Source: Cafeteria roenbergensis (taxonomy: Eukaryota; Sar; Bigyra; Bicosoecida; Cafeteriaceae). From it: a DNA stretch of 64,000 nucleotides. Below are positions 3,372 to 60,520 of this stretch, piece by piece; position 1 is the stretch's first letter; each line of letters opens with the position of its first letter. The translations under genes were made by a program, and so were the position numbers. The DNA lies in NCBI GenBank assembly GCA_008330645.1, contig VLTN01000013.1, forward strand, positions 372,001-436,000. The letters are read 5' to 3'. The notes under the pieces are model-generated. The model saw only the letters and a list, made by a program, of their open reading frames with translations. It had not been told where the DNA came from and searched no databases.

Positions 3372-3973
3372 CTTCTGTGCCAATCGATTGCAGTCCTTTG
3401 TTGCCTTCGATTGGCTTGCTTTGTGCGGGGCCAGCGCTGCCATGGCGTCTCATGCGCGCGCGCGGTGCTTTGCGCCAGAATCAAGGGCTATTTTGCTTTC
3501 GATTTCCCCCAGCGCGCCCGTCCCGTCTCGGGTCATGCATGCAGCCTTGTACGTGGTGATCGGGCTTTGCTGCCAAGATCGCTTTCGTTGGGACTTCAAG
3601 AGGTGGGGAGTGAGGCGCCTGCCCCCGTTGCTAGGCTCCTCAAGCAACCGCGCGAGTCGCGTCAGTCACACGAGCGTCTGCACCAGGCTCCCGGAGCGCA
3701 ACGCGCCATCGTCTGGCCACGGGTCCATGGGCATGCAGGACTTGGTGCTTGTGGCGGGGCCCTCTCTCGGGCGGCCTGCGCAGCGTCTGCTTGACACGAA
3801 AGCAGTGCGATGGCTCTGCTGGAAACGCACGCGTCCCGACGACGATGCCCCCCTTTCGCCCCGCGAAGCCACGACCACGCACTGCCACCCTCGGCGATCC
3901 CATCCCCGCGGGGCAGGGCCTGTCGCAAACCCAGGGCCTGGGGAGGGGACCCAGACAGGAGCAGACTGGAGGG
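3372..3973. other. Intergenic region between two membrane-protein genes
   Basis: About 600 bp between the stop at 3371 and the next start at 3974. The open frames here lack conserved-looking sequence and overlap one another; I see no gene, repeat or RNA. Confidence 0.5.
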
Positions 3974-28720: not shown

Positions 28721-31700
28721 ATGGTGAGGGAGGCATGAGCAATTTTCCCCGACGGGTGGCCGAGGAAGCAGCCCGTGCCGGGGCTCCATCGAGTTGGCGC
28801 GGGCGACGCGGCAGCGCTCTCGGCCATAGCAAGCTGGTGTTCCTTCGCCCCCGCGTCCGCGTCTCCCCGTGCCCCCGCAGCCCAACTTCACCGTCGACCA
28901 GCTTCGGTGAGTGTGCTGCAATAGCGGGCAGCCGGGCGGCACGCGGCACGAGCCGCTCCGAGCGCAGCGAGGCTCAAGCGCCGCTTCCTTCGTTCCGGCT
29001 TCACCCCAGCGAATCGTGCCGTCCTTCACCGCGCCCGCTCACCCGTCACGTCCTCCCCATGTCCCCGCAGCGACATCATGGACCTGACGGACAACATCCG
29101 TTGCCTGTCCGTGATCGCCCACGTTGACCACGGCAAGTCCACCCTCACGGATTCCCTCGTGTCCAAGGTGAGCCGAGCCACAGCCTCCTCCCTCGCCCAG
29201 CGCGCCCCTGTGCCTCCTCGCGTCCGGCTCGCGTGCCGCGTCCTGCCGGCATGCGCGGCCACTGCTCGCCCGGCTGGCGGCGGCTGCGCGCTCCGCGGGC
29301 CTGCGCCCGGTCGCGGGCGCGGGCGCGTTCTGAAGAGGGAGCGCGAGAGGGACTGCAACCAACTTCGGCAGATCCCCTCCGATGGCGCGCGAATTGCGGC
29401 GATCCGGCTTGGCGCCTCTTCGCCCCGCCCCGCCCCCCTCCCGCTCCGGCCTGGCGCTGCGGCCCGCGCGCATCGCGTGGCCGTGCATCGCGGTCACGTG
29501 GATGCGTGCGGTGCCATTCCCACCAGCTGGGGCATGCGGGGAGGGGCGCGCGCCCTTTTTGGATGGCCTTGCTCGCCGCGGCTCGCTGTGCAGGCCAAGC
29601 CGCACGCCCTCGCCGCTGTTCCTTCCTCCTCGCCCCCTGTTCACTGTCCCCCCTTCCTCCCGTGTGTTCCCGACCTCCACGCCCTCCCTGCGCGCAGGCC
29701 GGTATCATCGCCGCGTCCAAGGCCGGCGAGACCCGCTTCACGGACACCCGCGCCGACGAGCAGGAGCGCTGCATCACCATCAAGTCCACCGGCATCTCCA
29801 TGTACTTCGAGTACGACCTTGGCCTCGCCCGCACCCTCGAGGACGCGGACAACGCCGCCTTCGTGCTTGAGAAGAAGTCCAAGAAGGCCGAGAAGAGCAC
29901 CGACGCCGAGAAGGCTGCGGAGGAGGCCAAGGCCGCCGCCGAGGCTGCCGAGGCCGAGGCCGCCACCACCGCCACCACGGACGAGATCGCCGCCGCCGGC
30001 GACGCGGTTGTCATCAACGAGCACTCGTTCCTGATCAACCTGATCGACTCCCCGGGACACGTTGACTTCTCGTCCGAGGTGACCGCCGCCCTCCGTGTGA
30101 CGGACGGCGCTCTCGTGGTCGTGGACTGCATCTCCGGTGTGTGCGTGCAGACCGAGACCGTGCTGCGCCAGGCCCTCGCCGAGCGCGTGAAGCCCGTGCT
30201 GATGCTCAACAAGATGGACCGCACCATCCTCGAGCTGAAGATGGACCCCGAGGACGCCTACGGCAAGTTCCGTACCGCCATCGAGTCCGTGAACGTGATC
30301 ATCGCCACGTACCTCGATGACAAGATGGGCGACCTCCAGGTGTACCCCGAGGCCGGCACCGTGGCCTTCGGCTCCGGCCTGCACGCCTGGGGCTTCACGC
30401 TCCAGCACTTCGCCAAGATCTACGCCGTGATGTTCAAGTGCTCCCGCCGTAAGATGCGCGAGCGCCTGTGGGGCAACAACTACCTCATCACCGAGGGCAA
30501 GAAGACCAAGTGGGTGAAGCGCGGCGCCGGCGCCGCCTCCAGCAAGGAGCCCCGCGCCTTCGTGCAGTTCATCATGGACCCGATCAAGAAGCTGATCGAC
30601 GTGATCATGAAGTCCGAGGCCCCCGCCAAGGAGAACGACAAGCTCAACAAGATGCTCAAGAAGCTCGACGTGCAGCTCAAGGGCGACGAGAACGAGCTCC
30701 GCCAGAAGCCGCTGTACAAGCGCGTGATGCAGAAGTGGCTCCCGGCCGGCGACGCCGTGCTCGAGATGATCGTGATGCACCTCCCGTCCCCGCGCAAGGC
30801 CCAGTCCTACCGCACCGACCTCCTGTACGAAGGCCCCTCGGACGACGAGTGCGCCATCGCCATGCGCAAGTGCGACGTCGACGGCCCGCTGATGATGTAC
30901 ATCTCCAAGATGGTGCCCACCGCGGACCAGTCCCGCTTCTACGCCTTCGGCCGCGTGTTCTCCGGCAAGGTCGCCACCGGCCAGAAGGTGCGCATCATGG
31001 GCCCCAACTACGTCCCGGGCAAGAAGGCCGACCTGTGGGTGAAGAACGTGCAGCGCACGCTCATCATGATGGGCCGCTTCACCGAGGCCGTGCCCGACAT
31101 CCCCGCCGGCAACACCGCCGCCCTCGTCGGCGTCGACCAGTACCTGCTCAAGTCCGGCACCATCTCCACCTCGGACGTCGCCCACAACATCAAGCAGCTC
31201 AAGTTCTCCGTGTCCCCCGTGGTGCGCGTGGCCGTGCAGCCCAAGAACTCGTCCGACCTCCCCAAGCTGGTTGAGGGCCTGCGCCGCCTGGCCAAGTCCG
31301 ACCCCATGGTCGTGATCGAGACCGACGAGGAGTCTGGCGAGAACATCATCGCCGGCGCCGGCGAGCTCCACCTCGAGATCTGCCTCAAGGATCTGCAGGA
31401 GGACTTCATGAAGGGCGCCCCGATCGTCATCTCGGAGCCCGTCGTGTCCTTCCGCGAGACCGTGACCGAGGAGTCCTCGCGCGAAGTCATGTCCAAGTCG
31501 CCGAACAAGCACAACCGCCTGCACATGAAGGGCAACACCATGCCCATCGAGCTCCAGGAGGAGATCGAGGCCGGCACCGTGGCCGCCAACACCAAGGACA
31601 CCAAGGAGCGCGCCAAGTACCTCATCGACACCTACGGCTCGACCTTCAGCGACCCCGACCAGGTTGGCCCGAAGCGCCTTTGGGCCTTCGGCCCGGACAC

Positions 31701-37149: not shown

Positions 37150-38619
37150 TCATTCCGCAGAAGCCTCCACCTCAGCCTCGGCCTCCACCTCGACCTTGGC
37201 CTCGGCCTCCGGGTCCGCCTCCGGGTCTGCTGCCAAGTCCGCTTCCGCCTCGTCCACAGCTGCGTTGACCTCGTCGGCGGTGCGCTTGACATCCTCTGCT
37301 GCAGCGTCGACCACTCCCCCGGCTGCTTCGGCGGCGCTGGCTGCTGACTGGCCCGCCCGGGCCCGCGCTTCCGCGCCAGTGCCCTCGGCGTCGGCCTTGA
37401 GCTTGTCCACGCGGCCGCGGGCCGCCCTGCCGCGCGCTGCGGCCTGGATGCGCACCGCCGCCGCCTCCTCCTCGGTCAGCTCCTTGGCCTCTCTGGCCTT
37501 GGCCTTGGCCGCCTGGCGCGCCTCACGGGCCTGCGCCCTGGCCGCCTGGCGCGCCTCCTTCGCCTGGGCCTTGGCCTCGTCCGACTTGCCCTCGGCGTCG
37601 GCCTTGAGCTTGTCCACGCGGCCGCGGGCCGCCCTGCCGCGCGCTGCGGCCTGGATGCGCACCGCCGCCGCCTCCTCGTCCGCCTTGTCCTTGGCATCGC
37701 TCGCCATCGCGGCAACGCCGTCGCGGGCGTCTTCGGCCTTGGCCTTGGCCGCCTGGCGCGCCTCACGGGCCTGCGCCCTGGCCGCCTGGCGCGCCTCCTT
37801 CGCCTGGGCCTTGGCCTCGTCCGACTTGCCCTCGGCGTCGGCCTTGAGCTTGTCCACGCGGCCGCGGGCCGCCCTGCCGCGCGCTGCGGCCTGGATGCGC
37901 ACCGCCGCCGCCTCCTCGTCCGCCTTGTCCTTGGCATCGCTCGCCATCGCGGCAGCGCCGTCGCGGGCGTCTTCGGCCTTGGCCTTGGCCGCCTGGCGCG
38001 CCTCACGGGCCTGCGCCCTGGCCGCCTGGCGCGCCTCCTTCGCCTGGGCCTTGGCCTCGTCCGACTTGCCCTCGGCGTCGGCCTTGAGCTTGTCCACGCG
38101 GCCGCGGGCCGCCCTGCCGCGCGCTGCGGCCTGGATGCGCACCGCCGCCGCCTCCTCGTCCGCCTTGTCCTTGGCATCGCTCGCCATCGCGGCAGCGCCG
38201 TCGCGGGCGTCTTCGGCCTTGGCCTTGGCCGCCTGGCGCGCCTCACGGGCCTGCGCCCTGGCCGCCTGGCGCGCCTCCTTCGCCTGGGCCTTGGCCTCGT
38301 CCGACTTGCCCTCGGCGTCGGCCTTGAGCTTGTCCACGCGGCCTCGGGCTGCCTTGCCGCGCGCTGCGGCCTGGATGCGCACCGCTGCCGCCTCGGCTTC
38401 GGCCTTTTCGCGTGCAGCGCGGGCCTCATCGGTCTTGTCCGATGCCGCCTGCTTCGCGTCCTGGGCCCGGTCACGCGCTGCAGCAGACGCGTCCGCGGCC
38501 TTGCGAGCCGCTGCATGAGAGGCGTTGGATGCGGCGCTGGCTGCGCTTGCCGAGGCAGCGTGCACGCCCTTGGCAGCGCGGTCGGCGGCCTTGTCGAAGC
38601 TGTCAAACGCGTTATGCAT
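37150..38619 (-). CDS. IQ-motif tandem-repeat protein, ~489 aa
   Basis: Frame from MHNAFDSFDKAADRAAKGVH (38619) to the stop at 37150; the frame stays open upstream, so an earlier start or upstream exon is possible. After an Ala-rich amphipathic N-terminus come five IQ motifs (AAAVRIQAAARGRAARGR, matching IQxxxRGxxxR). Long Ala/Lys/Glu/Arg helices (EGKSDEAKAQAKEARQAARA, KDKADEE) separate them in 80-residue units. The tail is strongly acidic (EAEADLAADPEADPEAEAK). IQ motifs bind calmodulin or EF-hand light chains; the spacers resemble single alpha-helix or LEA-like sequence. No motor or other catalytic domain is present. A calmodulin-binding structural helix is inferred. Confidence 0.7.
   Translation of the reverse strand: MHNAFDSFDKAADRAAKGVHAASASAASAASNASHAAARKAADASAAARDRAQDAKQAASDKTDEARAAREKAEAEAAAVRIQAAARGKAARGRVDKLKADAEGKSDEAKAQAKEARQAARAQAREARQAAKAKAEDARDGAAAMASDAKDKADEEAAAVRIQAAARGRAARGRVDKLKADAEGKSDEAKAQAKEARQAARAQAREARQAAKAKAEDARDGAAAMASDAKDKADEEAAAVRIQAAARGRAARGRVDKLKADAEGKSDEAKAQAKEARQAARAQAREARQAAKAKAEDARDGVAAMASDAKDKADEEAAAVRIQAAARGRAARGRVDKLKADAEGKSDEAKAQAKEARQAARAQAREARQAAKAKAREAKELTEEEAAAVRIQAAARGRAARGRVDKLKADAEGTGAEARARAGQSAASAAEAAGGVVDAAAEDVKRTADEVNAAVDEAEADLAADPEADPEAEAKVEVEAEAEVEASAE
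37383..38400 (-). repeat. 240-bp coding tandem repeats (IQ array)
   Basis: The block starting CCTCGGCGTCGGCCTTGAGC recurs at about 37383, 37591, 37831, 38071 and 38311. The last three spacings are 240 bp; the first (208 bp) is a shortened unit. Neighbouring full units are almost identical at nucleotide level, including synonymous sites, indicating recent expansion or homogenisation. Confidence 0.9.
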
Positions 38620-44459: not shown

Positions 44460-47400
44460 TCAGAAAAAGCTGGGAAGAGGCGACCCGGCGCCGTCGCTGC
44501 TCCCGCTGGAGAGCGCTGCGGCCAGAGGCTGTCCGCGCCACTCGAGCCCGCCGTCTCCGTTCCCGAACATGGGCGACATGCCGCCTGCCTGCCCCGAGGC
44601 AGGGTCTTGGCTGAAGAGGTCAAACTCGGCCGCGGAGGAGGCGAGTGATAGACGCGACATGGCGACGCTCATCGCATCGTCGTCGCCGTCGTCTTCGGCC
44701 GTGGTTCGCCTGCGCTCGTGGGCGCTAGGGGGCGCCTCGAGCGGGCCGGGAGACGACACAGATCCTTCGCGCCTGTGAGGTGCCGCGGCCAGCCCGAACG
44801 CTGGTGCGCTGGGGGTGCCGTCGTCAACCCTGCCTGGCACGGGGCTGCCATAGATTGCGTCCAGGCCGCTCGGTCGCACCGGGAGAAGGCGTGGCGGCGC
44901 AGAGGCGGCAGCGGCTGCGCTGGCGAGGGGCGGGCCAGCGGCCGACGCCGCCGCAGCTCCGGCCGCCGCGCCGCCGCCTGCCAGCGGACGCAACGGCATA
45001 GCAGCGCCGTTGCCGCCGTTGGCTCCAGCAGCGGGGGAGGAGGCCGCCGCCACCACCCTTGAGCGCACGATGCGGCGCGCGTCTGCGAGCTTTGGGAACT
45101 TGAGCGCCGCCTTGAAGACGCAGAGCGGGGCGGCGAAGGGCGACGATGCGGCGTCGCGCATGGCGTCGCACTTGTGGAGCACCTCCAGCTGCGCCGCGTC
45201 CACCCCCCTCCTGCGCTGCTCTGCTGCCCGGATGGCCGCTGCGCGGGCGGAGAGGGCGAACTCGAGGACCTTTGCCAGGGGCACGAAGGGCTCCATCGTG
45301 GTGATGAGGCCCCACCCCGGCGAAATGGCGAAGGCGGTTTCGCAGCACATTTCTGCAGCGCGAGCCCCCTCGCTCGCCGAGGCCCGGGATGCTCGGGCCG
45401 CCGGCGCTCGCCCCGCCTGGCCTGACGACGGCGCGGCGCACGGCGTGGCCCCGTCGGGGCACCACTGCGCCTGCTCCCGCTTGAGCGCCTCGGCATGGGG
45501 GGCCTTGGGCCTGTCGAGGCCGAAGATGCCCGTGGGCCAGGCCAGCCGGAGGCGGAACCCCTGAGGGTTGGGCAGCGACTGCTCGAACACGGGGAGGTAC
45601 CGGCGGTCGCTGTCGTCGCAGGAGGGCACCGTGGGGCCGGTTGTGCACTGGCTGACCGCAGCGCCAGCGCTGCTGTCGCTGCTGGACGCGCTCGGCCGTC
45701 CCGCCTCCTCGCCGTTGCAGCGCTCGCCGTCCGTTCCGCCGCAGCCAGCGGCGGAAGCGCAGCCGCCGGCTGCCTCGTCGCCCCCGGCTGCCTGGCTGCT
45801 AGACCCCGAGGCGCCCCCGTGGCTTGCGGGCGCGCCGGCCCGGGGGCCGCCCCCAGCCGCAACAGAGCACTTCTTCGCGCCCCCAAACTCAAAGTCCGTC
45901 AGTCCTGGCCGCGGCATGCAATCCTCGCCCATGTCACACCACACCGCCTGGTCGTCGTGTGGGGGGGCGTGCGGGGCGGAGGCTCCGCCGTGGCTGTCGC
46001 TGCCACCCCCCGTATGGGCGTGGGCGGCCTCCACGCAGCGCTCGGGAAAGGGCTTCCCGGCCGGCGCCGTCCCGCCCCCGTGGGTCGCCCAGCACTCAAC
46101 CCGTGCCTGCCTCAGCCCCGAGGGGCTCCGCAGTGCGCCTGACGCCGAAGCCGGCGTCTGCGTGCGCAGCGTGGCCGCCTCGCCAGCGCCGAGGGGCTTC
46201 CCCCGCAGCTGGGCCTCGAGCCCCAGGCGCTCCTGCAGCGCGGCCTCGGTGCGGCAAAAGGCCTCTTGAAACTGAAACTCTTCCGTATCCTCGAAGCGCG
46301 GCGCGACGTCGGGCGACTGCGCGTCCCGCAGCAGCGAGGTCGGCGAAACCGACCCAGTGGGAGAGCCGGTGCGGACCGTGGCAGTGCCAGCCGAGCTGCT
46401 GCTGCCGCTTGCGTCGACGCCGCCGCCGCCGCCGCTGCTGCTGCTGCTGCTGCTGCTACTACCACCGCTGCTGCTGCTGCTGCTGCTGCCGCCGCCGCCG
46501 CCGCTGCTGCCTGTTCCTGGGCTCCCGCCCTCCGGAGTTTCCGCTCCAGCACGGCGCGGGCGCTTGGCGGGGTTCTGCTGAGAATGCCAGGCGCTGAGGT
46601 CAGGCCCTGCGTCGTCGTCGGGAGAGGCGAGCCCGGCCATGACTGCCCTCACTTCCTCGTGCGTGAAGACCACTTTGGGGAACCTTGGGTCGTGAGGCGG
46701 CTCCCACGGCGCCCTCCCCGTCTCTGTGGCGCTCGTGGTCGCCGCACCGCTGGAGGCGGGCGAGGCCGGCAAGTCAGCGGGCGGGTCGTCGCCAGCGGGC
46801 GGAACCGAGGCGAGGTACGCCTTGGCCGCGCGCACAATTGCTTCGCCGGCGCGGTCGACGAAACCAAGCTGGCCCGGTGCGCGCGGCTGCTGCGTCCGCT
46901 CGGACGCATCAGAATGCGGCACCGGCGGGACGCGATCGGCGAGCGTGCTTGCGATGGCAACTCGCAAGAAGGGGTCGTCCTCCGCGTCCAGCGCCGACCG
47001 CAGGCCGGCCACGAGGAGGTCGCGAGCCCTGTCCCAGGTGGGGAGGCGGGGCGCCGAGTCGGTCCCCAGGGCGGGGGCGGCCTCGGCGGCTGGCGCGCAC
47101 TCGTCCGAGATGTGAGTGATGGCGTCAGCAAAGTGGTGCGGCTGGCGCAGAATGGCCTTGCCGATGCGCTTGGCAACGTTGAGGTCGAGGGCGGGGTGGA
47201 GGGGCTTGGGCTCGAAGCGGACGTCGAGGAGGAACGTCGTCATGGAGCGAATCCTGCCTGTCGGGCCGTACATGATGTTGGCCAGCTCCGTCGCGTGGAA
47301 GACAGAGTGGCACACAGGCACAGGGAGGACGCAGCCGGCGGACACGAAGCGGAGGTACTTGCCTCGGAAGCGGAAGGTAGTGAGGCCGCGGGCGACGGCT

Positions 47401-49239
47401 TCTATGGAGCAGAGCGCCTGAGGGATGACCGACTCCGGGTGCACCCAGTTGATCTCGCCGCCAGAGTTGATGAGAGAGACAATGGTGGAGCAGGTGGTCC
47501 CCACAAGAGACATGGCCGCCTCGTTCATGAACACACTGCGAGAAGCGGCGTGCGTACGCGCGTGAGAGTGGCATTGGCGGGACCGCGGGGGAGGCAAGGG
47601 GGGAGGGAGCACTGGGGCGAGCAGCGCGGGCGGAGCAGGAGACGCCGACGAGCGCGAGGCCGGAGCGCCTCCTCCCCTGCGCAGCGAGAGGCGGCGGCGA
47701 GCGCGGCAAGTCGGGCGGCGCGCGCAGGCAAGAGCACGGCCAGAGCGGGAGAGGCACCGCTCACCTGATTGGGAACGATGTGACGTCGTCGTAGACCACC
47801 CGTGTGACGGGCAGCGGCGTGCCGGCAAGCGCGCTCTCGACGACGTCGTCGAAGCCGGTTGGCACCGCCCGAGCGATGTGATCAGCGTGTCGAGCCCCCC
47901 CCGCGGAGAAGCGTACCCCACCCGCTGCGATGCCGATCGCCGAGCAGTGATGGTCCGGGTGGTGGCCGGGCGGCAGCACTCCCGGGCGGACGGCCCGACC
48001 GCTGGGCGTCCTCACGCGCAAGGGCACGCCCAGGCGCTCGGAGGCGCCCGGCGTTCTGTTGAGGAGGGTGCGCACCCCCTCCTCGAGGTGAAGGAAGCGG
48101 CCGCTGCCGAGAGCCCTGGTGAACAGCTCCGTCCAAGCCGCCACGCCCTGGGGCGAGCACAGCGGGGCGTCGAAGAGACCCACGCGGGGCCTCAGCGAGC
48201 GGGCGGGCCCGGGAAGGGCGCGTCGGAACGAGGGAGGGCCCCGCGGCAGCAGGCTGCTGAGCAGGGAGCTGGGGGTGACCACTCTCGGCCCTGCAGAGGA
48301 CGAGGTCGAGGTCAATGCGGCGTCCAGCAGGCCGTCGAGCGAGAGGTCTCCCTCCTCCTCCCGGCCGGCCGCGATTGCCCGCAGGTGCGCTGTGGCCGCA
48401 GCCACTGCAACGTGACTGCGGTCGGCGAGGTCGCCGTCGTGCTCGGGGTCGCCGAAGATGGTGTCGATGACAGCCTCGTAGGGCCGCGCGCCAGAGGAGG
48501 GGCGGTCGAACGCGGACTCCTCGATGGACTCTATGTTTATCAGCGCGGTTTGGGCGGCGGATAGGTCATCGGGAGTCCAGCGAGCGGCAACGTCGGGCGT
48601 CGCAGCTTGTGACCCGACTAATTCGCCGGAGAGCCCCGCGCTCGACGACACGCCCCCATCCGCTGAAATCGCCAGCTGCCGCCTGCCATCAGACGTGCCC
48701 GCTGCGGACGCCGGCCCGTCTACAAGCAGCGGCCGCGAAGCGCGCCTGCCGCGGACGGAACCGGCTCCTCCGTCGCCAGGCGTTGGCACTGACCTGAGGA
48801 CCACTGCCGGCCCGTCGGCAAGAGGGTGGGGCGCTGGGGCGTGTGTCCAGGGCAGCCCGGGCACGCCAGGCGCAGGCCGCGCGGCCGCGCGCCCAACGTG
48901 GGCCAAAGGGTCAGCCTTTCCCGCCCAGCCCGAGTGGTCCTCCATGCTGCCGTCCTCCTCAGCGGGCCGCTTGCGCGCTCGCCCAGCTGGAGTGCTCTGG
49001 TCCGGGCTACCCTTTGGGCTCGCTGTGTCGTTGGCCTGTTGCGCGGCACGCTCGCGGCGCCGCGCGGCTGCTTTTCCATCCTCGCAAACCTTCCCCAGGC
49101 GCGCGCACCTCGCGCAGGGGCGTTGGCCGTCGCATTTCTTCCTCCCGGACTCACAGGCACGGCAGGCCATGCCATGGCGAAGGTGCTTGCCCTTGGGACC
49201 CAGCAAGGCGCCACTCTTTCGAGCAGCAACAGCCGCCAT
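44460..49239 (-). CDS. Zn2Cys6 (fungal-type) putative transcription factor 1, 1516 aa
   Basis: Exons 49239-47765 and 47535-44460 (donor GTGAGC, acceptor TCTCGCAG, phase 2). Residues ~24-50 form a complete binuclear zinc cluster (HGMACRACESGRKKCDGQRP followed by CARCARLGKVC; spacing C-x2-C-x6-C-x5-C-x2-C-x6-C). A basic Ala/Arg-rich stretch follows. Before the splice is a conserved block (VGLFDAPLCSPQGVAAWTEL, LLNRTPGASERLGVPLRVRT, RVVYDDVTSFPI) that continues across it (VFMNEAAMSLVGTTCSTIVS, RFRGKYLRFVSAG, ANIMYGPTGRIRSMTTFLLD); this resembles a PAS-type sensory fold only by position and layout. Very long Ser/Gly/Ala-rich regions include trinucleotide runs near 46420-46510. A final conserved motif is LPVFEQSLPNPQGFRLRLAW. 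Paralogue of the gene at 57660-60520. Confidence 0.8.
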
Positions 49240-50242
49240 TGCTTCCACCCCAGCACGCCCTCACACACAGCTCGCCTAGAGCAAAGCGCCCGCTCAACGT
49301 CTGAGCGGCGCTCTCCTAACTAATGTGGCGCGCCCCTCCTGGGACGGGCTTGGCGTGTGGCCGTCGGCGCTCGTGATTCTGGCAAGTTTCTGCTGAGTTC
49401 CGCTGAGGAACGAAGGCAAGGGCTCTGGCTTCAGGCGCGCTCCCGCGACCAGGACTTCAGCGGCGCTTGTCTGGGCCCTCCGCCGGGGGGTGGGGAGCAG
49501 CAATGTTGTCAGGGCTTGCCAGCTGGCTGCGTGTTGGCCGGGCGGCACTGGAGCTCGACAAGCGACTCCAAAGGGCGCACATGCTGTGGCGGCGAGGCGT
49601 TCGCTCGCTCTCGGGCAACCGCCTGACACCTTCGAGCGCCGTCGGGCTCACGCGAGGAAGGGGCGCCCCAATTGGCCAGCGCCGCCCAGCACCACGGCCA
49701 CAACACCATCACAGTGACACCACCTATGTCAGCCCTGCGGCCTGCACAAACCGTTGCGCGCAGCTGGGGGCGCAGGCCTGCGACACTCGGCCAAGCAGCG
49801 ATAGAGTTGCTGCCCGGCGCCGAGCGCTGTCAACCGAAGCTGCAGACCGCCGCAGAATCATGCGCATGGCGCGCTATCCGCGGCCACGGAGCGTCATGGA
49901 CGCCTCGGCTACCTCGCGCAAGCGGCGCCTCGCTCTCTGGTTGGTGGTCAGCGCTGAGAGCCGGAGCGACGGGTGACCGGCCTGCGCTGCGCCGTACGGG
50001 CCGGCCACCGCAGGCAGCAACGCAGCTGGAAGGGAGCCGCTCATTCCTTGAGCCGCGCAAGCGGGAGGAAGCCAGCGGAGGATCGCCTGGTCGCGCCCTC
50101 GCGGGAACAGCCTGGGCGACGAGTGTCACCGCGGATCGGCTCTCTGCTGCATCTCGCCGTCGGGTGCGGGCTCCTCCTCATACGCGCGTGCTGCGTCGCA
50201 TAATTGTAGCCCCATTCGTGCTCAAGCTGTCCCGCCCCCCGT
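49240..50242. other. Intergenic region upstream of Zn2Cys6 gene 1
   Basis: About 1 kb. Several overlapping open frames exist but none has conserved-looking content. It should contain the TF1 promoter; the right edge abuts the duplicated exon fragment. Nothing else is recognised. Confidence 0.4.
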
Positions 50243-50634
50243 GCTCACCGGCTGGTCCAGCAACGGCAACGCCCTGCGGCCCGGCTACGAGGGCTACGTC
50301 GAGGACGCGGCCGCTCCCATCACCAAGATGGCACGCCCAGGTGTCGAGTCTGGTTTCAAGGCCGCCGCCCCGGCAGGCGTCCCCGATGCTGGCAGCGTGC
50401 GCGTGTAGTCGAGCGCGGGTGTGTGTGTGTTTTGCGGGTGGGTGCCAGCGGGCAAGCCGCTCCGCTGCTGCCGCCTCTGTGCGCGCTGCCGCGCAAGTCA
50501 TGATTCCCGCACGCACGTTGGCAGCCGCTCCCAAGCTCACACATCACTGGGGCGCGTGGCGACAGCGTCGTCTCAGCGCACTCGGGCGCGCGCCGCTGCC
50601 CGCACCGCGCTCTCCGAAAGCGCCGTCTCAGGCA
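50243..50634 (+). pseudogene. Duplicated last exon and 3' flank of the gene at 56449
   Basis: These 392 bp match 57275-57666 in the same orientation, with one mismatch seen by eye (A for G at about 50580). It starts exactly at the first base of exon 4 of the 56449-57440 gene (LTGWSSNGNALRPGYEGYVE and on to the TAG at 50406-50408). It continues through that gene's 3' flank to the last codon of Zn2Cys6 gene 2. No upstream exons are present, and the preceding bases lack the CCTGCAG acceptor (here CCCGTG), so it is a non-functional fragment. Confidence 0.88.
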
Positions 50635-50960: not shown

Positions 50961-51758
50961 GACAAGGCCACCACGGGGCTAAGCAGCCACAGGATGCGTC
51001 CAGGGACAGTTTCCAAGCCCGCAGAGCCTGCTGCTGTCTTCGATGTGACACACACTGCCGGGATCCCGCCGGCACTGGTGTGGCCGTGAACTTAGCGCCC
51101 GCGCTGCCCGCCCAAAGCTGGAACGCTCCTCCGCCGCCGGCTTGGCCTGGGCGAGCTCCTTTCTCGCTGCGGAGGCTGGACGCTGCGTCAGGAGGTGGAC
51201 GAGTCCAGAGCCCAGCGGGCCCGGCGAGCACAACTGGCTGAAGGCGCGGCAGTCAATACCGAAAGTGAGCGCGCGGCGCCGAGGGAGGGGGGTGGCGTTG
51301 GACCACAGTCCAAGCCACGGCAGGCAATCCAAGCGCAAGCAGCCACCCCCGGCTGCCTCGTTGCCTGCGCCAGGGCGGGTGTGCGACTCGTGACCCTCCA
51401 GCGGGATCTGCTGCCTTCGCCGACCTAGACACGAATGGGGCGGGCAGCCTCAGAGGATGCGCTGCAGGCTACTATTTGACAACTTGTCGCGCTATATGGG
51501 GCACTGGGCGGCTGCTTTTGCCCCAGGGCGGCTTGATTTGCATTCACACGCAATTCTGGGCTGGGAGTGGAACGCACCTACACGGCTTCATGGCCGCTTC
51601 GGCTGCAGACACGCAACCCACTGACCATTCCGGGCTTGTGGGTGTCCAGCCTGCTGCTTTTATCGGCGGACTGGGCCCGGTGCGGCCAGAGGCCTCGCGC
51701 TGCGGGACGGAGCGTCCTCCAATGTTCGCAGCCTGCAAACATGCATTCCCGGCAAACG
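50961..51758. other. Non-coding stretch left of the TIR element
   Basis: About 800 bp with no convincing gene. The last 8 bp (51751-51758, GGCAAACG) are the left target-site duplication. Before insertion, this DNA continued directly into 56349, upstream of the gene at 56449. Confidence 0.45.
51751..51758. repeat. Left target-site duplication GGCAAACG
   Basis: Identical to 56341-56348, directly adjoining the first base of the inverted repeat. Confidence 0.85.
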
Positions 51759-51976
51759 GGTAGAGCGTACAGGGGGCCTAAGCCCCCCCCCTTATTGACA
51801 TCATTTTCCCTTCCGCCCACTCCGGCAACCACACCACCGCAAACGCCCAGCCTCCCCACCCTCTCCACACCTTCGGTGTCACCCCTCCCCCCCGCAGATC
51901 CATCGTCAGGGCATGGAATGACTCCCTGGCGCGGGAATCTGGCCCAATGGAGCCAGGGTAGCGCCAAGCGATCGCC
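51759..51976 (+). repeat. Left terminal inverted repeat
   Basis: 218 bp, ending AGCGCCAAGCGATCGCC. It matches the reverse complement of 55995-56340 with few substitutions apart from the missing 128-bp segment. Confidence 0.88.
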
Positions 51977-52908
51977 GTGGCCGTTGCCATCAACAGGCCG
52001 CACGTGGCTCACAAGTTCTTGGCCGGAATGCAGCCATCTGACCAAAGGACCAGCATGTACGTCTTTCAGACTCCCCAGGAAGAGATGACTCTTGGTTGAG
52101 CGAGGCTATGTGGGCTGTAGCGGCGTTTGCTGCCCGAAACGAATCGACCGTTGCTTTCGCCGCTCCCGCCAGCACTGGAGATGCTCCCCCTGCAACAAGG
52201 ACCACCTCCGTCACGGTTTGCTTGCTTCAGAACATTTCAGAGCATTTGCGGCCCCATGCCGTGGAGTCGTTGGCCCTGGGAGTGCTGAGAGCGGCGGAGA
52301 GCCCGCTGAGCTTGTCGTGACTGCCTGCTGACGTCGGCAGAGCCTTTCTCCTGGCTACCAGAGGCGCATCCGGTAGTTGTGGTCACCGAGTTGCCCAGAA
52401 AGTGGTGTCCGAATGGTATAACGCCTCATCCATTCGGCAGGCGTTGCCAAGGAGGGCTGATTGGCTGACCAGAGCAGCTGAGCCAGAGGACTTGCTGCTT
52501 GGGCACTTCGCCGTCGTCAATGGGACTACGCTGGTGGATGCTGGGAAGCAGGTACAAACTCTCGTTGCCGCGACAGGGGCGGGTTTGAGTCGCAAGGCAA
52601 CCGGGGCCTCTGTTACGTACCGCTGCCTCGCGCGCAGGGACATTAAGCCCCCGCGAGGCACTGCGATGGGGAGCATCGCAAGAGGATGCCGCTCTTTGTA
52701 CCGGTGCAGGAGTTGACCTGTCCAGTGCTTCCAAGGGAGATTACCAATCTGGCGCAGCCACATCTGCCAAATGGCATGGTGCGTGCCGGAGACAATGTTG
52801 CGAACCGCATGAGGCAGCAGAGCACTTGACGAAGTTCGAGCTGCTTGGTCGCGCAAATTTGACGGCTCTGCACAGTGGGCATCACACATTTGGCTAGCTG
52901 GGTTTGCT
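51977..52908. other. Left arm of the TIR element, no recognised gene
   Basis: About 930 bp with visibly lower GC and different codon texture from host genes. Several stop-free stretches occur: plus 52096-52320, plus 52402-52716 (VVSEWYNASSIRQALPRRAD, then LLLGHFAVVNGTTLVDAG) and minus 52383-52889. None has an ATG and family motif that I recognise. It could hold exons of an element-encoded gene or decayed coding sequence. Confidence 0.4.
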
Positions 52909-55527
52909 ATGCGTCACACCCAAGCGCAAGGCCGGCCCATGAGCCCAGCAGAGCACACAATCATCAAGGCAATGTCCACTGGAAGACTTGAGCACAGGAC
53001 CAAAGCGAGCGCAGGCTGCATCCACTGCCAAAAAGGCCACAGTCAAGAAGCCATTTCCCAGAGCATCGAGACGATCGGCAGTCATCCGAACGCGGTTGAG
53101 GTCCATTCCACCACCGTGGATGCGGCTAACGTCTTCCAGAGCAACGTAGACGCGGCTGACGTCCTCCCAAGCAACGTAGACACGGCTGACGTCCTCCCGA
53201 GCAATATAGACACGGCTGACGTCCTCCCGAGCAACGTAGACACGGCTGACGTCCTCCCGAGCAACGTAGACGCGGCTGAAGTCCACTACAGCGACGTCGA
53301 CGCGGCTGACGTCCACTACAGCGACGTAGACGCGGTTGACGTCCACTACAGCGACGTAGATGCGGCTGACGTCCACTACAGCGACGTCGACGCGGCTGAC
53401 GTCCACTACAGCGACGTAGACGCGGCTGACATCCTCCAGAGCAACGTAGACGCGGCTGACGTCCTCCAGAGCAACGTAGACGCGGCTGACGTCCTCCCGA
53501 GCAACGTAGACGCGGCTGACGTCCTCCCGAGCAACGTAGACAATGTAGACGCGGCTGACATCCTCCAGAGCAACGTAGACACGGCTGACGTCCACTACAG
53601 CGACGTAGATGCGGCTGACGTCCACTACAGCGACGTCGACGCGGCTGACGTCCACTACAGCAACGAAGACGCGGCTGACGTCCTCCAGAGCAACGAAGAC
53701 GCGGCTGACGTCCTCCAGAGCAACGTAGACGCGGCTGACGTCCTCCCGAGCAACGTAGACGCGGCTGACGTCCTCCCGAGCAACGTAGACGCGGCTGACG
53801 TCCTCCCGAGCAACGTAGACGCGGCTGACGTCCTCCCGAGCAACGTAGACAATGTAGACGCGGCTGACGTCCTCCAGAGCAACGTAGATGCGGCTGACGT
53901 GCTCCCGAGCAACGTAGACGCGGCTGACGTCCTCCAGAGCAACGTAGACGCGGCTGACGTCCACTACAGCGACGTAGACGCGGCTGACGTCCACTACAGC
54001 GACGTCGACGCGGTTGACGTCCTCCCGAGCAACGTCGGCGCGGCTGACGTGCTCCCGAGCAACGTAGACGTCCACTACAGCGACGTCGACGCGGCTGACG
54101 TCCTCCCGAGCAACGTCGGCGCGGCTGACGTGCTCCCGAGCAACGTAGACGCGGCTGACGTCCACTACAGCGACGTCGACGCGGCTGACGTCCTCCAGAG
54201 CAACGTAGACACGGCTGACGTGCTCCCGAGCAACGTAGATGCGGCTGACGTGCTCCCGAGCAACGTAGACGCGGCTGACGTCCTCCAGAGCAACGTAGAC
54301 GTCCACTACAGCGACGTCGACGCGGCTGACGTCCTCCCGAGCAACGTAGACGCGGCTGACGTCCTCCAGAGCAACGTAGACGCGGTTGACGTCCACTACA
54401 GCGACGTCGACGCGGTTGACGTCCTCCCGAGCAACGTCGGCGCGGCTGACGTGCTCCCGAGCAACGTAGACGTCCACTACAGCGACGTCGACGCGGTTGA
54501 CGTCCTCCCGAGCAACGTCGGCGCGGCTGACGTGCTCCCGAGCAACGTAGACGTCCACTACAGCGACGTCGACGCGGCTGACGTCCTCCCGAGCAACGTC
54601 GACGCGGCTGACGTCCTCCAGAGCAACGTAGACGTCCACTACAGCGACGTCGACGCGGCTGACGTCCTCCCGAGCAACGTCGACGCGGCTGACGTCCTCC
54701 AGAGCAACGTAGACAATGTAGACGCGGCTGACGTCCACTACAGCGACGTCGACGCGGTTGACGTCCTCCCGAGCAACGTCGGCGCGGCTGACGTGCTCCC
54801 GAGCAACGTAGACGTCCACTACAGCGACGTCGACGCGGCTGACGTCCTCCAGAGCAACGTAGACGCGGCTGACGTCCACTACAGCGACGTCGACGCGGTT
54901 GACGTCCTCCCGAGCAACGTCGGCGCGGCTGACGTGCTCCCGAGCAACGTAGACGTCCACTACAGCGACGTCGACGCGGCTGACGTCCTCCAGAGCAACG
55001 TAGATGCGGCTGACGTCCACTACAGCGACGTCGACGCGGCTGACGTCCTCCAGAGCAACGTAGACGCGGCTGACGTCCTCCAGAGCAACGTAGATGCGGC
55101 TGACGTGCTCCCGAGCAACGTAGATGCGGCTGACGTCCTCCAGAGCAACGTAGACGCGGCTGACGTCCTCCAGAGCAACGTAGACGCGGCTGACGTCCTC
55201 CCGAGCAACGTAGACGCGGCTGACGTGCTCCCGAGCAACGTAGACGCGGCTGACGTCCTCCAGAGCAACGTAGACGCGGCTGACGTCCTTCCGAGCAACG
55301 TAGACGTCCACTTCAGCGACGTTGACGCGGGTGACGACCATTCCAGCAGCTTCCTCATGGCTGGCGTCATTTCGAACGCCATTGACTGCAATTCCATCGA
55401 CGAACACACGGCTGGCGTCGTGAGTGACAGCGCCGTCGTACCCATCACTCTTCAACGCATTCTCCCGAGCTGCGAGCCTTCCTTGGGACCGCATCGCGGA
55501 ATGCGCAGAGGCCATTCTCCCCATTGA
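52909..55527 (+). CDS. Putative pentapeptide-like repeat protein carried by the TIR element, 872 aa
   Basis: ATG at 52909, stop at 55527. Residues ~1-65 are unique (MRHTQAQGRPMSPAEHTIIK), then about 145 five-residue units follow the rule [A/S]-[D/N]-V-x-x (ADVLP SNVDA ADVHY SDVDA). This is close to the A-[D/N]-L-x-x consensus of pentapeptide-repeat proteins, which fold as a square beta-helix. The unit repeats as 10 residues per 30 bp. The last ~60 residues are unique, with a few degenerate units (SNAIDCNSID). The minus strand is open over the same span (52894-55524) with a 10-residue repeat (YVAREDVSRV) and a Met start, so which strand, if either, is expressed is unresolved. I favour plus because the repeats match a known fold rule. 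Confidence 0.45.
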   Translation: MRHTQAQGRPMSPAEHTIIKAMSTGRLEHRTKASAGCIHCQKGHSQEAISQSIETIGSHPNAVEVHSTTVDAANVFQSNVDAADVLPSNVDTADVLPSNIDTADVLPSNVDTADVLPSNVDAAEVHYSDVDAADVHYSDVDAVDVHYSDVDAADVHYSDVDAADVHYSDVDAADILQSNVDAADVLQSNVDAADVLPSNVDAADVLPSNVDNVDAADILQSNVDTADVHYSDVDAADVHYSDVDAADVHYSNEDAADVLQSNEDAADVLQSNVDAADVLPSNVDAADVLPSNVDAADVLPSNVDAADVLPSNVDNVDAADVLQSNVDAADVLPSNVDAADVLQSNVDAADVHYSDVDAADVHYSDVDAVDVLPSNVGAADVLPSNVDVHYSDVDAADVLPSNVGAADVLPSNVDAADVHYSDVDAADVLQSNVDTADVLPSNVDAADVLPSNVDAADVLQSNVDVHYSDVDAADVLPSNVDAADVLQSNVDAVDVHYSDVDAVDVLPSNVGAADVLPSNVDVHYSDVDAVDVLPSNVGAADVLPSNVDVHYSDVDAADVLPSNVDAADVLQSNVDVHYSDVDAADVLPSNVDAADVLQSNVDNVDAADVHYSDVDAVDVLPSNVGAADVLPSNVDVHYSDVDAADVLQSNVDAADVHYSDVDAVDVLPSNVGAADVLPSNVDVHYSDVDAADVLQSNVDAADVHYSDVDAADVLQSNVDAADVLQSNVDAADVLPSNVDAADVLQSNVDAADVLQSNVDAADVLPSNVDAADVLPSNVDAADVLQSNVDAADVLPSNVDVHFSDVDAGDDHSSSFLMAGVISNAIDCNSIDEHTAGVVSDSAVVPITLQRILPSCEPSLGPHRGMRRGHSPH
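53118..55316. repeat. 30-bp tandem repeat array (about 70 units)
   Basis: The unit is GACGCGGCTGACGTC followed by one of three variable halves: CTCCCGAGCAACGTA, CTCCAGAGCAACGTA or CACTACAGCGACGTM. Frame is never broken: exceptions are 15-bp half units and 9-bp additions (GACAATGTA at about 53539, 53848 and 54711). Higher-order blocks recur, such as the 75-bp pattern with GTCGGCGCGGCTGACGTG at about 54025, 54110, 54430, 54515, 54775 and 54915. This indicates successive segmental duplications. Confidence 0.92.
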
Positions 55528-55994
55528 TCGCTACGCAGAAGCCTCACGAGTCCGATTCCAGCGTCTCCGCACGACTCAAGTGCCCCCGCACCTCACACTT
55601 CACAGCCGGCTTGCAGTTACGTTGCTCTGCCGACGCTGGTGGCTCATTTGCGGCCAGGATGTCAGGCTTCACAGCAGACGTGCCCTTGCAATGAGGTCTT
55701 TCGAACAGCCAGCGGCCCAAGCGTCGAGATCACTTGAAGCTACAACGGATCCATCTGGTGCTTTGGCAATTAGGCCCTGTGGGCGACAGCCGGGCGGCTG
55801 GAGCTGGCTGAGGATCAACGGCCACTGCAAAAATGCTCCTCGGTACCGCCGCAGCCCACCTTCCTCATCCCCAACAGTACCGCAGCGACGCTTAACAGTT
55901 GATTAAGTCGCACACAGCCCCGTGGTCGCGAAAGCTCTTTCATGGCAGAGAAATGTGCGAGGAAGGTCTTCAACGGTGACCACATTTTCTCCCG
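55528..55994. other. Right arm of the TIR element
   Basis: 467 bp between the repeat ORF and the right inverted repeat. A plus frame (55424-55906) stays open and overlaps the end of the repeat ORF (PLFNAFSRAASL-like SLFNAFSRAASLPWDRIAEC, then RWWLICGQDV). No family is recognised; GC is lower than in host genes. Confidence 0.4.
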
Positions 55995-56340
55995 GGCGAT
56001 CGCTTGGCGCTACCCTGGCTCCATTGGGCCGGATTCCCGCGCCAGGGAGTCATTCCATGCCCTGACGATGGATCTGCGGGGGGAGGGGTGACACCGAAGG
56101 TCTGGAGAGGGTGGGGGAGGCTGGGCGTTCGACTGCGTAATTCGCGCCGACTTTGCCGCCGCCTCACGCCTCGGCGGCGTGGTCCTGGGCGCTGCCCGCG
56201 TCACACATGAAGGTTTAGTAGCATTTGCGCCGGCTTTTGCGAAAAAGCGGTGGTTTTGGCGGTGGTGTGGTTGCCGGAGTGGGCGGAAGGGAAAATGATG
56301 TCAATAAGGGGGGGGGCTTAGGCCCCCTGTACGCTCTACC
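55995..56340 (-). repeat. Right terminal inverted repeat with 128-bp extra segment
   Basis: Reverse complement of 51759-51976. About 128 bp at 56131-56258 have no counterpart on the left, either an insertion here or a deletion there. Confidence 0.85.
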
Positions 56341-56348
56341 GGCAAACG
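56341..56348. repeat. Right target-site duplication GGCAAACG
   Basis: Identical to 51751-51758; adjoins the last base of the element. Confidence 0.85.
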
Positions 56349-56448
56349 TCGATCGGGCATCTCTGCCGGGCGCAAGGGCGCTCGCGGCGTGCGCGTCGCG
56401 CTGGCAGGCTGCGCGCCGGACCTCGCACAGTCCGAGCAGGTGGCTAGG

Positions 56449-57440
56449 ATGGCTGCGTCTCGCGAAGAGCTGGTCGAGCACCACGACGCGCTCGCCGCGG
56501 GTCTGGCGAAGCGCATGTCCCAGGCCAAGGCCGTGGCTCGCGCGGAGGGCCGCGAGTTCGACGCCGAGAAGTGGGCCACCGGGCGCAGCAGCACCGCCGT
56601 GTACAAGTTCGGCGCGCCGTACTACGTGAGTGTCGCGAGGACGGGATCCTGGGGGCGGCGGCAGCCGCCCGCGAGGGCGGGAAGGACACGGCGGAGGCCG
56701 CCTGCATCGGCAAGCAGCCGCCTTTGTCCCACCATTTGCCTTGCTGCACGCGGCGCTCCCCACCCCAAGCGCCCCCACCCCGCCCCCTGCCCTCTCTCCT
56801 CCACCCGTGTCGCAGCCTATCGTTGCGGGCGTCCCCACCATGGGCCAGGCCCTGGCTGGAATGAACGCGTACGACGTTTCCCGCATGGTCGTGTGGGGCT
56901 CGGCCGCCGCTGCAGCCGGCTTCATGTTCGGTGAGCGCGCGGCAGGTTGTGCCCAATTGTGCGGCCCGCGATCAGCCTTTGGACTGCGGCTGCTGGCATC
57001 GTGCCGTTGCTGCGAGCCCCGCTCTCCCGGCAGCCCGTTGCGCGCGCCGCCGCAGGCTGGAGGTACAAGCGCTGGCTGGCAGTCGAGCCCGCCACCGTGG
57101 CTGGTTTCTTTGGTGTCGGGGCTGGGTCCGTGTGCGTGTTCCAGGGCACGTGGTCGTCCATGGCCAGGTGAGAGAATGGGCCCAAGTGCGGAGCCAACTT
57201 GGAAACTGCGCCGTCTTGTGCCGCAGGCACTGCGCTGACCCGCCGCCTTTGCCTCCCCTGGTCGCCCCCTGCAGGCTCACCGGCTGGTCCAGCAACGGCA
57301 ACGCCCTGCGGCCCGGCTACGAGGGCTACGTCGAGGACGCGGCCGCTCCCATCACCAAGATGGCACGCCCAGGTGTCGAGTCTGGTTTCAAGGCCGCCGC
57401 CCCGGCAGGCGTCCCCGATGCTGGCAGCGTGCGCGTGTAG
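56449..57440 (+). CDS. Small two-helix membrane protein, 189 aa, four exons; possibly mitochondrial
   Basis: Exons 56449-56625 (MAASREELVEHHDALAAGLA, donor GTGAGT), 56816-56930 (PIVAGVPTMGQALAGM), 57056-57167 (WRYKRWLAVEPATVAGFFGV) and 57275-57440; all phases fit. Two hydrophobic helices (VSRMVVWGSAAAAAGFMFG and VEPATVAGFFGVGAGSVCVF) are joined by a basic WRYKRW turn, with hydrophilic ends. The size and shape resemble small accessory subunits of the mitochondrial inner membrane (for example of complex I), but I recognise no specific family. The TIR element lies 108 bp upstream and may have displaced or replaced its promoter. Exon 4 is duplicated at 50243. The stop is 219 bp from the convergent Zn2Cys6 gene 2. 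Confidence 0.7.
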
Positions 57441-57666
57441 TCGAGCGCGGGTGTGTGTGTGTTTTGCGGGTGGGTGCCAGCGGGCAAGCCGCTCCGCTGC
57501 TGCCGCCTCTGTGCGCGCTGCCGCGCAAGTCATGATTCCCGCACGCACGTTGGCAGCCGCTCCCAAGCTCACACATCACTGGGGCGCGTGGCGACAGCGT
57601 CGTCTCAGCGCGCTCGGGCGCGCGCCGCTGCCCGCACCGCGCTCTCCGAAAGCGCCGTCTCAGGCA
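57275..57666 (+). repeat. Source copy of the 392-bp duplicated fragment
   Basis: Direct repeat of 50243-50634. It spans exon 4, the 3' flank and the stop codon of Zn2Cys6 gene 2. Confidence 0.9.
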
Positions 57667-60520
57667 AGGCCAAGCAACTCCAGGTCTTCGTCGAACGAGG
57701 AGCGCGACCCCACAGACTCGGGGCCGCAAGATTCCAAAGCCAGCCCCGTGGAGAGACTGTCGGGGAACCCCAGCGAATCGCCCGTGTCGCCTGCGTGTTC
57801 CCGCGGGTCTGATCCTTGTCTGTGCGGCAGGCTGCTGCCAGGGACGGCCGACGACCCAGCAGCGGCCATGAGACCGCTGCCAGCGGAGGCAACGGCGGCA
57901 TCAGGCGGAGCCGCATCCGCATCCGCATCCGCAGTCGCACCAGCCGCCGAAATGGCAAGCGCTTCAGGGGGCTCGGCTGTCTCGGGCAGGACCTCGGCGG
58001 GTACCTCCTGCACACGAGAGCCCATTGCGGCCTCCACGCGCTGCACCCACGTGACGATGTCCCGCTCCACGTCGGCCTCACCGACACTGTCACTTGTGAC
58101 GTCGTAGCTTCGCCCCACCCATGGCACGCGCAGCCGATACCCCGTGGGCGTTGGAAGCGCCTGGCGGATCACTGGAAGGAAGCGCATCTCTAGCTCGTCT
58201 CGGGCGCGCAGCACCGCGACCTGGCCCGGCTGCAGCACCAACGTGGGCTGGACGCCCGACCTGCTGCTGGGCTGCACTGGACCGACGGTCCCTCCCTGGT
58301 TGCCAGCGGCCACGGCCAAGCGCGTGCGGCCGGTGACGACCAGCGGCTGAGGGGCCAGGTCGCTCCCGAACAACCACGCTGGGCTGGTCGACGCCTCAGC
58401 CGGCGAGCGAGCTGCGCCGGGTGGCGCCTGCGCCCCGTCGTTCTCCTCGTCTTGGCTGCTACCGCGGGCACGCTGCGGCGCGCACGGGTCGGGAGTCAGA
58501 GCCGGAGGCAGCTCTCCGGGAGCCCGCCGGACCACCCTGCTATCCACCGCCCATGGCGGGAGCACGTGGTCCGTGACAGGAACGGCGCGTTTGCGAGCTT
58601 GCAAGGCGGCGCTCCGATGCGCTGGCGAGCCAGACACCGTGTCTGCCAAGATTGCGGCGGTAGAGCCTGCGGGATGAACTGCCCGGGGCCGGCCGAGCAG
58701 CTTGGCCGTGCGAGTTACACGCTCGACAGCAGCGGAGGCGTTGTCGGCATAGCCCGGCCGAACGCTAGAAGCGCCAGGGGGTGACGAGCATCCGTCGCCC
58801 GCCCAGTTGAGCTCGTGCCACGAGCCGCTGAGAGGCTTGGCAAGATCCGCATGATGCTGCTTCACCATGGCATCGGAGAAGTCGGTCCATGTGGGCAGAT
58901 GCGACACGCTGGAGGCGTCAACGATGGCAATGTCGTAGGCTTTTTTGTTGGCCCCGATGGCGCCCGCCGCCTCCATCGCCTCCATTTGCGTGCGGGCAAC
59001 GACGGAGCCGATCACATGGGCTATGTTCACGTCCTTGCCCGAGAAGAGGGGCGTGGCTTCGAACTCGATGTCTGTGAAAAAGCTCGTGACCGAGCGAAGG
59101 CCGCCAGATGGACCATATGTGAGGTAGCTGGTCTCCATGGCGCGGAACGGTGTGAACGCGAGGGCGACTGAGAGGCTGCTGGCGCCCGGCAGGAGGCGCA
59201 GGAATCGTCCTTTGTGTCGAAACAAGCTCTCGTGCCGCGCGCAGGCTGCCATGAATGTGCGAACTTGAGAGACTTTGGAGGTTGGGTGGTGCAGAAAGGG
59301 CTGTCCTCCTTTGTTGACCATGCCTCTCAAGTCCAAGTCATGCACGCCAAGGAGGTGCAACATTGCCCAGTTGAGGTACGCGCTGCGGACGGCACCGCCA
59401 GAGGCGCGGAGGGCGCCCGAGGCCCAACTCCAAGAGCAGCATGCGGCACGGGTGAACTGCATCTTGGCGACGAGGGCGGAAACGCAGATCGACTTCGCTC
59501 GCAGTCCCGCGCTGCCAGCTGCCGCGCAGGCCCGGCGAGCTGGGACGCAACCACTTCTCGTGGAACTCACGTGATCGGGAATTCAGTCACGTCGTCGTAA
59601 ACGGTCCGAACAACAGGGATCGGCGACGACGACAACGCCACTTCCACCACGTCGTCGAAGCCGAGAGGCAAGCCCCTCACAGTGCGGCCCCGAAGACCCG
59701 AAAAGGACGACGCGCTGAATGCTCCGCCCGCCGCAAGGCCGACCTTCGCGCAGCTGTGTGCCACGTGGTGGCCCGGCGGGAGCTCGTGCGGCGCCATGTA
59801 CCGGCCTTCCAGCGTGGTCACTCGGAACGGGACACCCAGCCTGGCCGACGCGCCAGGGGTTGACTCCATAAGATGTCGGATCCCCGACTCCAGCTGCCCG
59901 AGGCGGCCGCTGTCAGTGGCGCAGCTCATCACTCGCGACCAGGCGGCAATGCCTTGCGGGGACCACAGGGGTGCGTCGAAGAGCCGGACCCGCGGGGACA
60001 TCGCCAGCGCCGGTGAGGGCAGCAGGAACACTTGCTGCCCAATCCCGGCCTGCGAGCCCGGCAAGCCCGCGATGGAGGCCCCAGACGGTGTGCGCCACGC
60101 CAGGTCGGAGGGCGGCGCCCATGCGCGCTTGCCAGGCTGGATGTGGCCATCACGGACGCCGCGCATTGTAGGTGCTGCGCCGGCAGCAGCTGCAGCTCCA
60201 GGCGGAGGCGGGCACCGGGAGGGCAGCGTCTCGTGCGCTCGAGACCAAACGGGCTCGGGAGTGGGGTCCATTCGTGAAGCCGCGCGCTTTGGGGCGCGCG
60301 CGGCCGACGTGCTCTCGAGCTTGCTCGCGGCCTTGGCTTGGCGTCGCAGCGCCGCCTTGCCGTCAACGCAAGTTTTCCCCATCCGGTCGCAGCGCTCGCA
60401 AGGCCTCTGGCCGTCACAGCGCTTGCGCGCGCGCTCGCACTCGCTGCATGCCAGCCCATGCCGCAGGTTTGTCCTCCGCGGCCGTGCGGAGGCACCCGCT
60501 GCTGGCTGCGCCTGACGCAT
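57660..60520 (-). CDS. Zn2Cys6 (fungal-type) putative transcription factor 2, 890 aa
   Basis: Exons 60520-59571 and 59382-57660 (donor GTGAGT, acceptor GTCCGCAG, phase 2), with the intron at the same codon as in paralogue 1 (after VYDDVTEFPI). The zinc cluster is at residues ~21-50 (LRHGLACSECERARKRCDGQ, then RPCERCDRMGKTC). The shared middle block is MSPRVRLFDAPLWSPQGIAA, STPGASARLGVPFRV, GFDDVVEVAL, RTVYDDVTEFPI. After the splice: AYLNWAMLHLLGVHDLDLRG, RHKGRFLRLLPGASSL, LTYGPSGGLRSVTSFFTDIE. A C-terminal motif, RFLPVIRQALPTPTGYRLRV, is also shared. Low-complexity regions are much shorter than in paralogue 1. Predicted nuclear DNA-binding regulator; target unknown. Confidence 0.82.

Follow-up and report, generated by a model that had tools for sequence, protein, structure and literature searches.

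The locus considered here raises the question of what kind of mobile DNA occupies positions 51759-56340 of the window, the 64,000-nucleotide stretch of a Cafeteria roenbergensis contig that was analyzed, and of what could have moved it, a preliminary description having found there a giant tandem-repeat reading frame and no known transposase. We consider the element to be a non-autonomous, internally deleted copy of a cut-and-paste-type (Mutator-type) DNA transposon, which would be moved in trans by a 1671-aa transposase, and give this reading a probability of roughly 0.75.

The element is 4582 bp long with inverted ends GGTAGAGCGTAC...GTACGCTCTACC, and the target-site duplication GGCAAACG lies directly against both ends, at 51751-51758 on the left and 56341-56348 on the right, confirming the identical 8-bp word that had been seen there. 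The reverse-complementary ends of more than 200 bp were likewise confirmed; arm alignment gave a left terminal inverted repeat of 220 bp (51759-51978, plus strand) and a full-length right repeat, 346 bp here (55995-56340, minus strand), which pair in blocks of 85 nt (99%), 94 nt (97%), 39 nt (97%), and 16 nt (100%). These matches are far above chance; in the alignment of the left with the right arm, 221 of 231 positions are identical. About 127 internal bp are absent from the left arm and are kept by the right arm and by the other copies, the full repeat being ~347 bp. The GC content of the element is 62%; in 2-kb steps along the window it is 65-73% outside the element and 61-63% in the two steps inside it. 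An Rfam search of 51400-56800 and a tRNA scan of the 64-kb window both returned no matches.

The surroundings have features of their own. Two similarly arranged minus-strand gene pairs flank the element (44460-49248 and 57660-60520), each comprising a Zn(2)Cys(6) cluster protein (PF00172) and a large frame, and a shared frame is also present at 50178-50540 and 56922-57572; this arrangement looks like a local duplication. Elsewhere in the window, a tandem repeat at 37495-38394 has a 240-bp unit in 3.8 copies with 99% matches, and an identical 22-bp repeat consensus at 10627-10672 and 29246-29291, ~18.6 kb apart, suggests a second duplication.

A search of the host's own assembly (36,303,456 bp in 167 contigs) with a 220-bp query from the left end of the window element resulted in 29 matches, which belong to at least eight elements, all copy counts being lower bounds. 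We refer to these by contig as C13 (the window copy), C2, C6, C90, C131, C43, C120, and C32. Both ends are present in seven of them, C32 being cut off by the start of its contig, and these seven fall at 4582 bp (C13), 5072 bp (C2), 4891 bp (C6), and 4933 bp (C90), or at 7777 bp (C131), 8025 bp (C43), and 8027 bp (C120), with inverted repeats that are 93-96% identical between short and long copies. The short copy C90 ends at the end of its contig, leaving six copies testable for target duplications; all six have one, each different, of 9 bp in C2, C6, C131, and C43 and of 8 bp in the window copy and C120. The further copies which the preliminary description had proposed to seek with the inverted end are thus present, and together with a distinct duplication at every testable copy they support its claim of a mobile insertion. 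The element end had no match in the viral and genome contig collections scanned, which may omit near records of the host genome.

Unoccupied counterparts of the insertion sites were sought in the same genome with the left flank of all seven two-ended copies and the right flank of the window copy. For C131, the two flanks (97 and 98% identical) meet at C34, where they share a single CTGTCGCAG, and the flanks of C120 (99.6 and 99.1%) overlap at C27 by 8 bases, which is the length of the duplication. The C43 insertion is matched by an unoccupied copy of the surrounding dispersed repeat (L051), in which the two sides overlap by 9 bases, while for the short copy C90 the entire left flank (703 columns, 99.1%) is found on C79 without the element, a match that covers the left side only. 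Hence an unoccupied counterpart, allelic or paralogous, exists in the same assembly for four of the seven insertions. The flanks of the window copy and of C2 are unique in this genome and matched only themselves, and the flank of C6 matched only partial paralogues that end short of the insertion point. The window insertion's own empty site, which the preliminary description had proposed to look for in other strains, was found neither in this genome with either flank nor in the viral contig collection, which may omit near records of the host genome. The dispersed repeat in which the C43 copy sits is ~340 bp long (L012, left flank 454-750, right flank 8776-8826) and gave at least 42 matches, the best 40 of 116 candidates being scored.

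The three ~8-kb sister copies (C131, C43, and C120) share the ends of the window element and a related tandem-repeat array, and carry in addition sequence encoding a transposase-like protein, in C131 as a 1304-aa frame on the minus strand of the locus. The database homologue search, in which only the 8000 candidates sharing most words were scored, returned one protein, P0001, of 1671 aa, which is unnamed, has no Pfam domain, and groups 9 member sequences from 7 contigs; the start codon of its gene is within the inverted repeat. None of the three long copies in the assembly has the frame uninterrupted; an intact version is on record as P0001. Pairwise, these copies differ by 4-6 substitutions in 5139 columns vs. 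15-25 indels, nearly all of one base, an excess as expected of long-read assembly errors. The longer copy with a transposase between the same ends for which a search had been suggested therefore exists in triplicate, with an unnamed transposase-like gene, and the statement that no known transposase is present stands for the window copy and fails for the family. The suggestion of an undescribed family also stood, no named family having been found for the element.

Alignment of the window copy with the long copies explains the difference in size as an internal deletion. A dead 5′ remnant of the transposase-like gene lies at 51947-52747 on the plus strand (tblastn, residues 1-267 of P0001); it starts within the inverted repeat, meets a stop at codon 5, and contains frame shifts. 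It is followed at 52745-52775 by the junction of a 4.3-kb deletion, reaching from ~1117 to 5417 in long-copy positions, with ~30 bp that resemble neither side. Homology then resumes at 52775-53098 (plus strand), and beyond the array a unique stretch at 55307-55994 (plus strand) leads to the right inverted repeat. Identity to the long copies is ~92% at long-copy positions 210-1117, ~82% at 5417-5737, and ~87% over the last kilobase after the array, the right inverted repeat included. The same junction is found in C2, C6, and C90 and in the part of C32 that is present. Outside the array, with gap columns set aside and the window copy as reference, C2 is identical at 1256 of 1256 and 990 of 990 aligned bases with one gap, C6 at 1249 of 1253 and 987 of 990, and C90 at 1208 of 1252 and 980 of 987. 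Codon 5 is a stop in the window copy, C2, and C6, and in C90, at the contig end, a base is missing instead. The 5′ gene piece kept by the short copies gave a dN/dS of 0.43 against the long copy C43 (265 codons; Fisher p 0.002). This value and those below each come from one pairwise comparison, and the long copies differ too little from one another to provide further independent ones. The claim that the element is non-autonomous is supported by these data, and from the near identity of its members we judge the short subfamily to be recent and to have spread since it came to share the 4.3-kb deletion.

Taken together, these observations are consistent with a mechanism in which the 1671-aa protein of the 8-kb copies would be the transposase, would bind the inverted repeats common to all copies, and would cut out the short copies in trans, and in which these would be reinserted at cuts staggered by 8-9 bp, in the manner of Mutator-type elements.

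Several properties of P0001 bear on its assignment. The protein contains, in order, D655, D747, a CxxH at 1288-1291, E1391 within SNNAAE, and a SWIM-like CxCx12CxH at 1514-1531. From Mutator alignments, we take these to be putative catalytic and zinc-binding residues. The ordered DDE/CxxH/SWIM-like pattern, which was chosen after the protein had been seen, occurred in none of 5000 shuffles; the single CxCx12CxH at 1514 occurred in 42 of 5000 shuffles and has no Pfam SWIM row. About 520 residues (518) separate the second-Asp helix after D747 from the CxxH, and a nuclease-like fold looked for by eye in this stretch had no support from any tool. Pfam (E up to 10) and NCBIfam (E up to 1) returned no transposase-type domain in P0001, and PF10551, the Pfam MULE domain, had no match in the host genome or among the Pfam rows of P0001 at E up to 10. 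The 25-residue Mutator signature (PMC2725143) is matched at best at 6 of its 10 specified positions, in an unrelated place, and shuffled sequences reach 5-8. A PDB sequence search with 1303 aa of the transposase-like protein gave no matches, and one with a two-row profile gave only two MHC chains (E 1.5 and 1.6), taken as chance. Beyond its own family and one paralogue, homologues of P0001 were not found among the candidates scored, with one search returning none at E up to 10.

Comparison with described systems supports the Mutator-type reading at the level of the whole element. In the part of PMC6446971 drawn on here, the Mutator superfamily is characterized by target duplications of 8-11 bp and long terminal inverted repeats, the latter common and not universal; the present family has duplications of 9 bp in four of six copies and 8 bp in two, and repeats of ~347 bp, or 220 bp in the left arm of the window copy. 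MULEs such as Muta1 of Aedes aegypti resemble it in their 8- or 9-bp duplications, inverted repeats of more than 100 bp, and non-autonomous derivatives that keep the same termini, and subterminal tandem repeats occur in 10 of 12 long-repeat mosquito families (sections consulted of PMC5225508), while the Tm1 family of nematodes has mixed duplications of 8-10 bp, mostly 9 (PMC3169594, in part). A SWIM-type zinc finger is found in many MULE groups (PMC6446971 Table 1), and P0001 has a SWIM-like pattern. Rehavkus, a Mutator-related group of insects and annelids, likewise makes 9-bp duplications and has a minisatellite ahead of its 3′ inverted repeat, with inverted repeats ranging from 26 to 400 bp, and the aphid Phantom shares a minisatellite after the transposase frame and duplications of 8-10 bp (PMC6446971, the latter in Table 1). 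There are also differences. Muta proteins have 416-554 aa vs. 1671 aa in P0001 (PMC5225508), which unlike MULEs matches neither the Pfam MULE and SWIM models nor the PMC2725143 signature. Rehavkus, compared by description only, has a PHD finger (PMC6446971), whereas P0001 has none in Pfam at E up to 10 and the SWIM-like pattern in its place, and no sequence similarity to Phantom was detected in the searches made. Because duplications of 8-11 bp, long inverted repeats, and a minisatellite are matched by described Mutator, Rehavkus, and Phantom elements, Muta1, and Tm1, we consider that the window element works like a Mutator-type element. At the protein level, we would treat membership of Mutator as unproven and do not file the element as a proven member, because P0001 has neither the 25-residue signature nor PF10551 and its RNase H-like catalytic fold is putative.

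The same facts leave some room for an undescribed DNA transposon superfamily distinct from Mutator, in which P0001 would only resemble the DDE/CxxH/SWIM order or would have branched off early and have a very large domain interrupting its catalytic core. The missing Pfam, NCBIfam, and PDB sequence matches beyond chance, the absence of PF10551 from the genome and of the signature from the protein, and the 518 residues between the second Asp helix and the CxxH would all fit this alternative, which we regard as possible and clearly the less probable, as Mutator or Rehavkus elements have been described with each of these features: duplications that vary between 8 and 9 bp, long inverted repeats, the zinc-ligand pattern, and a minisatellite ahead of the 3′ end (PMC6446971 and PMC5225508, as far as drawn on here).

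One distant relative of P0001 is encoded in the same genome, at C18:91116-95531 (L028:3117-7532, minus strand), as an open 1471-aa frame that lies downstream of one for an aminotransferase. It is 24% identical to P0001 over 1183 columns, and its database form, P0002 (1419 aa), is 100% identical after rounding over the part searched. Of the motif residues of P0001, the alignment shows D655 conserved, D747 and the His of the CxxH substituted, and E1391 opposite a gap. The search of C18:88000-97999 gave no inverted repeat above 31 nt. This paralogue may well be a domesticated transposase. A broader and more doubtful proposal, to which we would give only tentative credence, is that the family may form an undescribed superfamily or a deeply diverging lineage next to Mutator and Rehavkus, with a 1671-aa core split by ~520 residues, and that the C18 paralogue may be a domesticated copy with a cellular function. 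Near the paralogue (L029:1052-4451), 300-nt direct repeats with 97-99% identity lie 2250 bp apart.

The giant repeat reading frame, which the preliminary description had proposed as cargo in place of a transposase, coincides with a minisatellite. Tandem-repeat analysis defined an array at 53115-55306 (plus strand) with a 30-bp unit and 21- and 39-bp variants, open on both strands (67, 0, and 51 stops in the three plus frames and 1, 0, and 22 in the minus frames), and the ORF list gave an 872-aa frame at 52909-55527 (plus) overlapped by an 876-aa frame at 52894-55524 (minus). The number of units varies among copies, and some units in the arrays of C6 and C90 have lengths not divisible by three, which may reflect assembly error, as one-base gaps occur elsewhere in both copies. 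The idea that the repeat frame replaces a transposase is not supported, because the 8-kb gene-bearing copies have a related array as well, between the transposase-like gene and the 3′ end, and because a dead 5′ piece of that gene survives in the short copies.

A carrier element whose repeat frame is a real, selected cargo protein would nevertheless account for the length of the frames (992 aa on the plus and 996 aa on the minus strand in C2) and for a plus frame that is open across the array in the long copies C43 and C131 too. Four of the six differences between the short-copy and long-copy unit are synonymous in this plus frame, and the start of the minus frame is identical at 44 of its first 62 residues between short and long copies, with a dN/dS of 0.56 (168 nt, p 0.14); the retained plus frame with its synonymous differences and the minus-frame value hint against a by-product. 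On the other side, dN/dS is 1.13 (p 1) at the end of the plus frame (168 nt) and 1.29 (p 0.51) in a 160-aa frame that follows the repeat frame, so none of the three frames departs significantly from 1, whereas the transposase piece does. Variation among the 30-bp units (63 in the window copy, 73 in C2) is spread over all three codon positions, and short and long copies differ in the frame in which the unique ends run into the array. With no significant sign of a selected protein in dN/dS or codon-position variation, a cargo protein is improbable, and the 872-aa frame is most likely a by-product of a minisatellite whose unit lengths are multiples of three.

The hAT superfamily was raised by the preliminary description on the strength of the 8-bp duplication, which the window copy and C120 do have. 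hAT elements are known for an 8-bp duplication in all copies and a C-terminal dimerization domain. We rejected hAT, now very unlikely, because four of the six testable copies have 9-bp duplications, and no hAT domain, including the dimerization domain, was among the Pfam rows of P0001 at E up to 10.

An origin from other mobile DNA of the same host was rejected on GC content and on the absence of a recognizable domain in P0001. EMALEs (endogenous virophages) also have long inverted repeats, but complete EMALEs have 29.7-52.7% GC vs. 62% in the element, and the Ngaro retrotransposons found in Cafeteria have reverse transcriptase, RNase H, and tyrosine recombinase domains, whereas P0001 has none that is recognizable (PMC8547959, in the portion used). 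An inverted segmental duplication whose edges happen to match over 8 bp, in favor of which nothing was found, has a negligible probability and was rejected, given the same ends at eight places, duplications in all six testable copies, and unoccupied counterpart sites.

Cafeteria serves as a model in work on virophages and nested mobile DNA. Neither "transposase" nor "MULE" appears in the main text of a study of its mobile DNA (PMC8547959), and no title describing a Mutator-type or other DNA transposon family was among the matches listed for the Cafeteria and bicosoecid literature. If the Mutator-type reading is true, Cafeteria would harbor a recently mobile DNA transposon family with long copies and deletion copies and with insertion differences within one assembly, the host may possess a domesticated relative of that family, and the family would provide a test case for a very large Mutator-type transposase.
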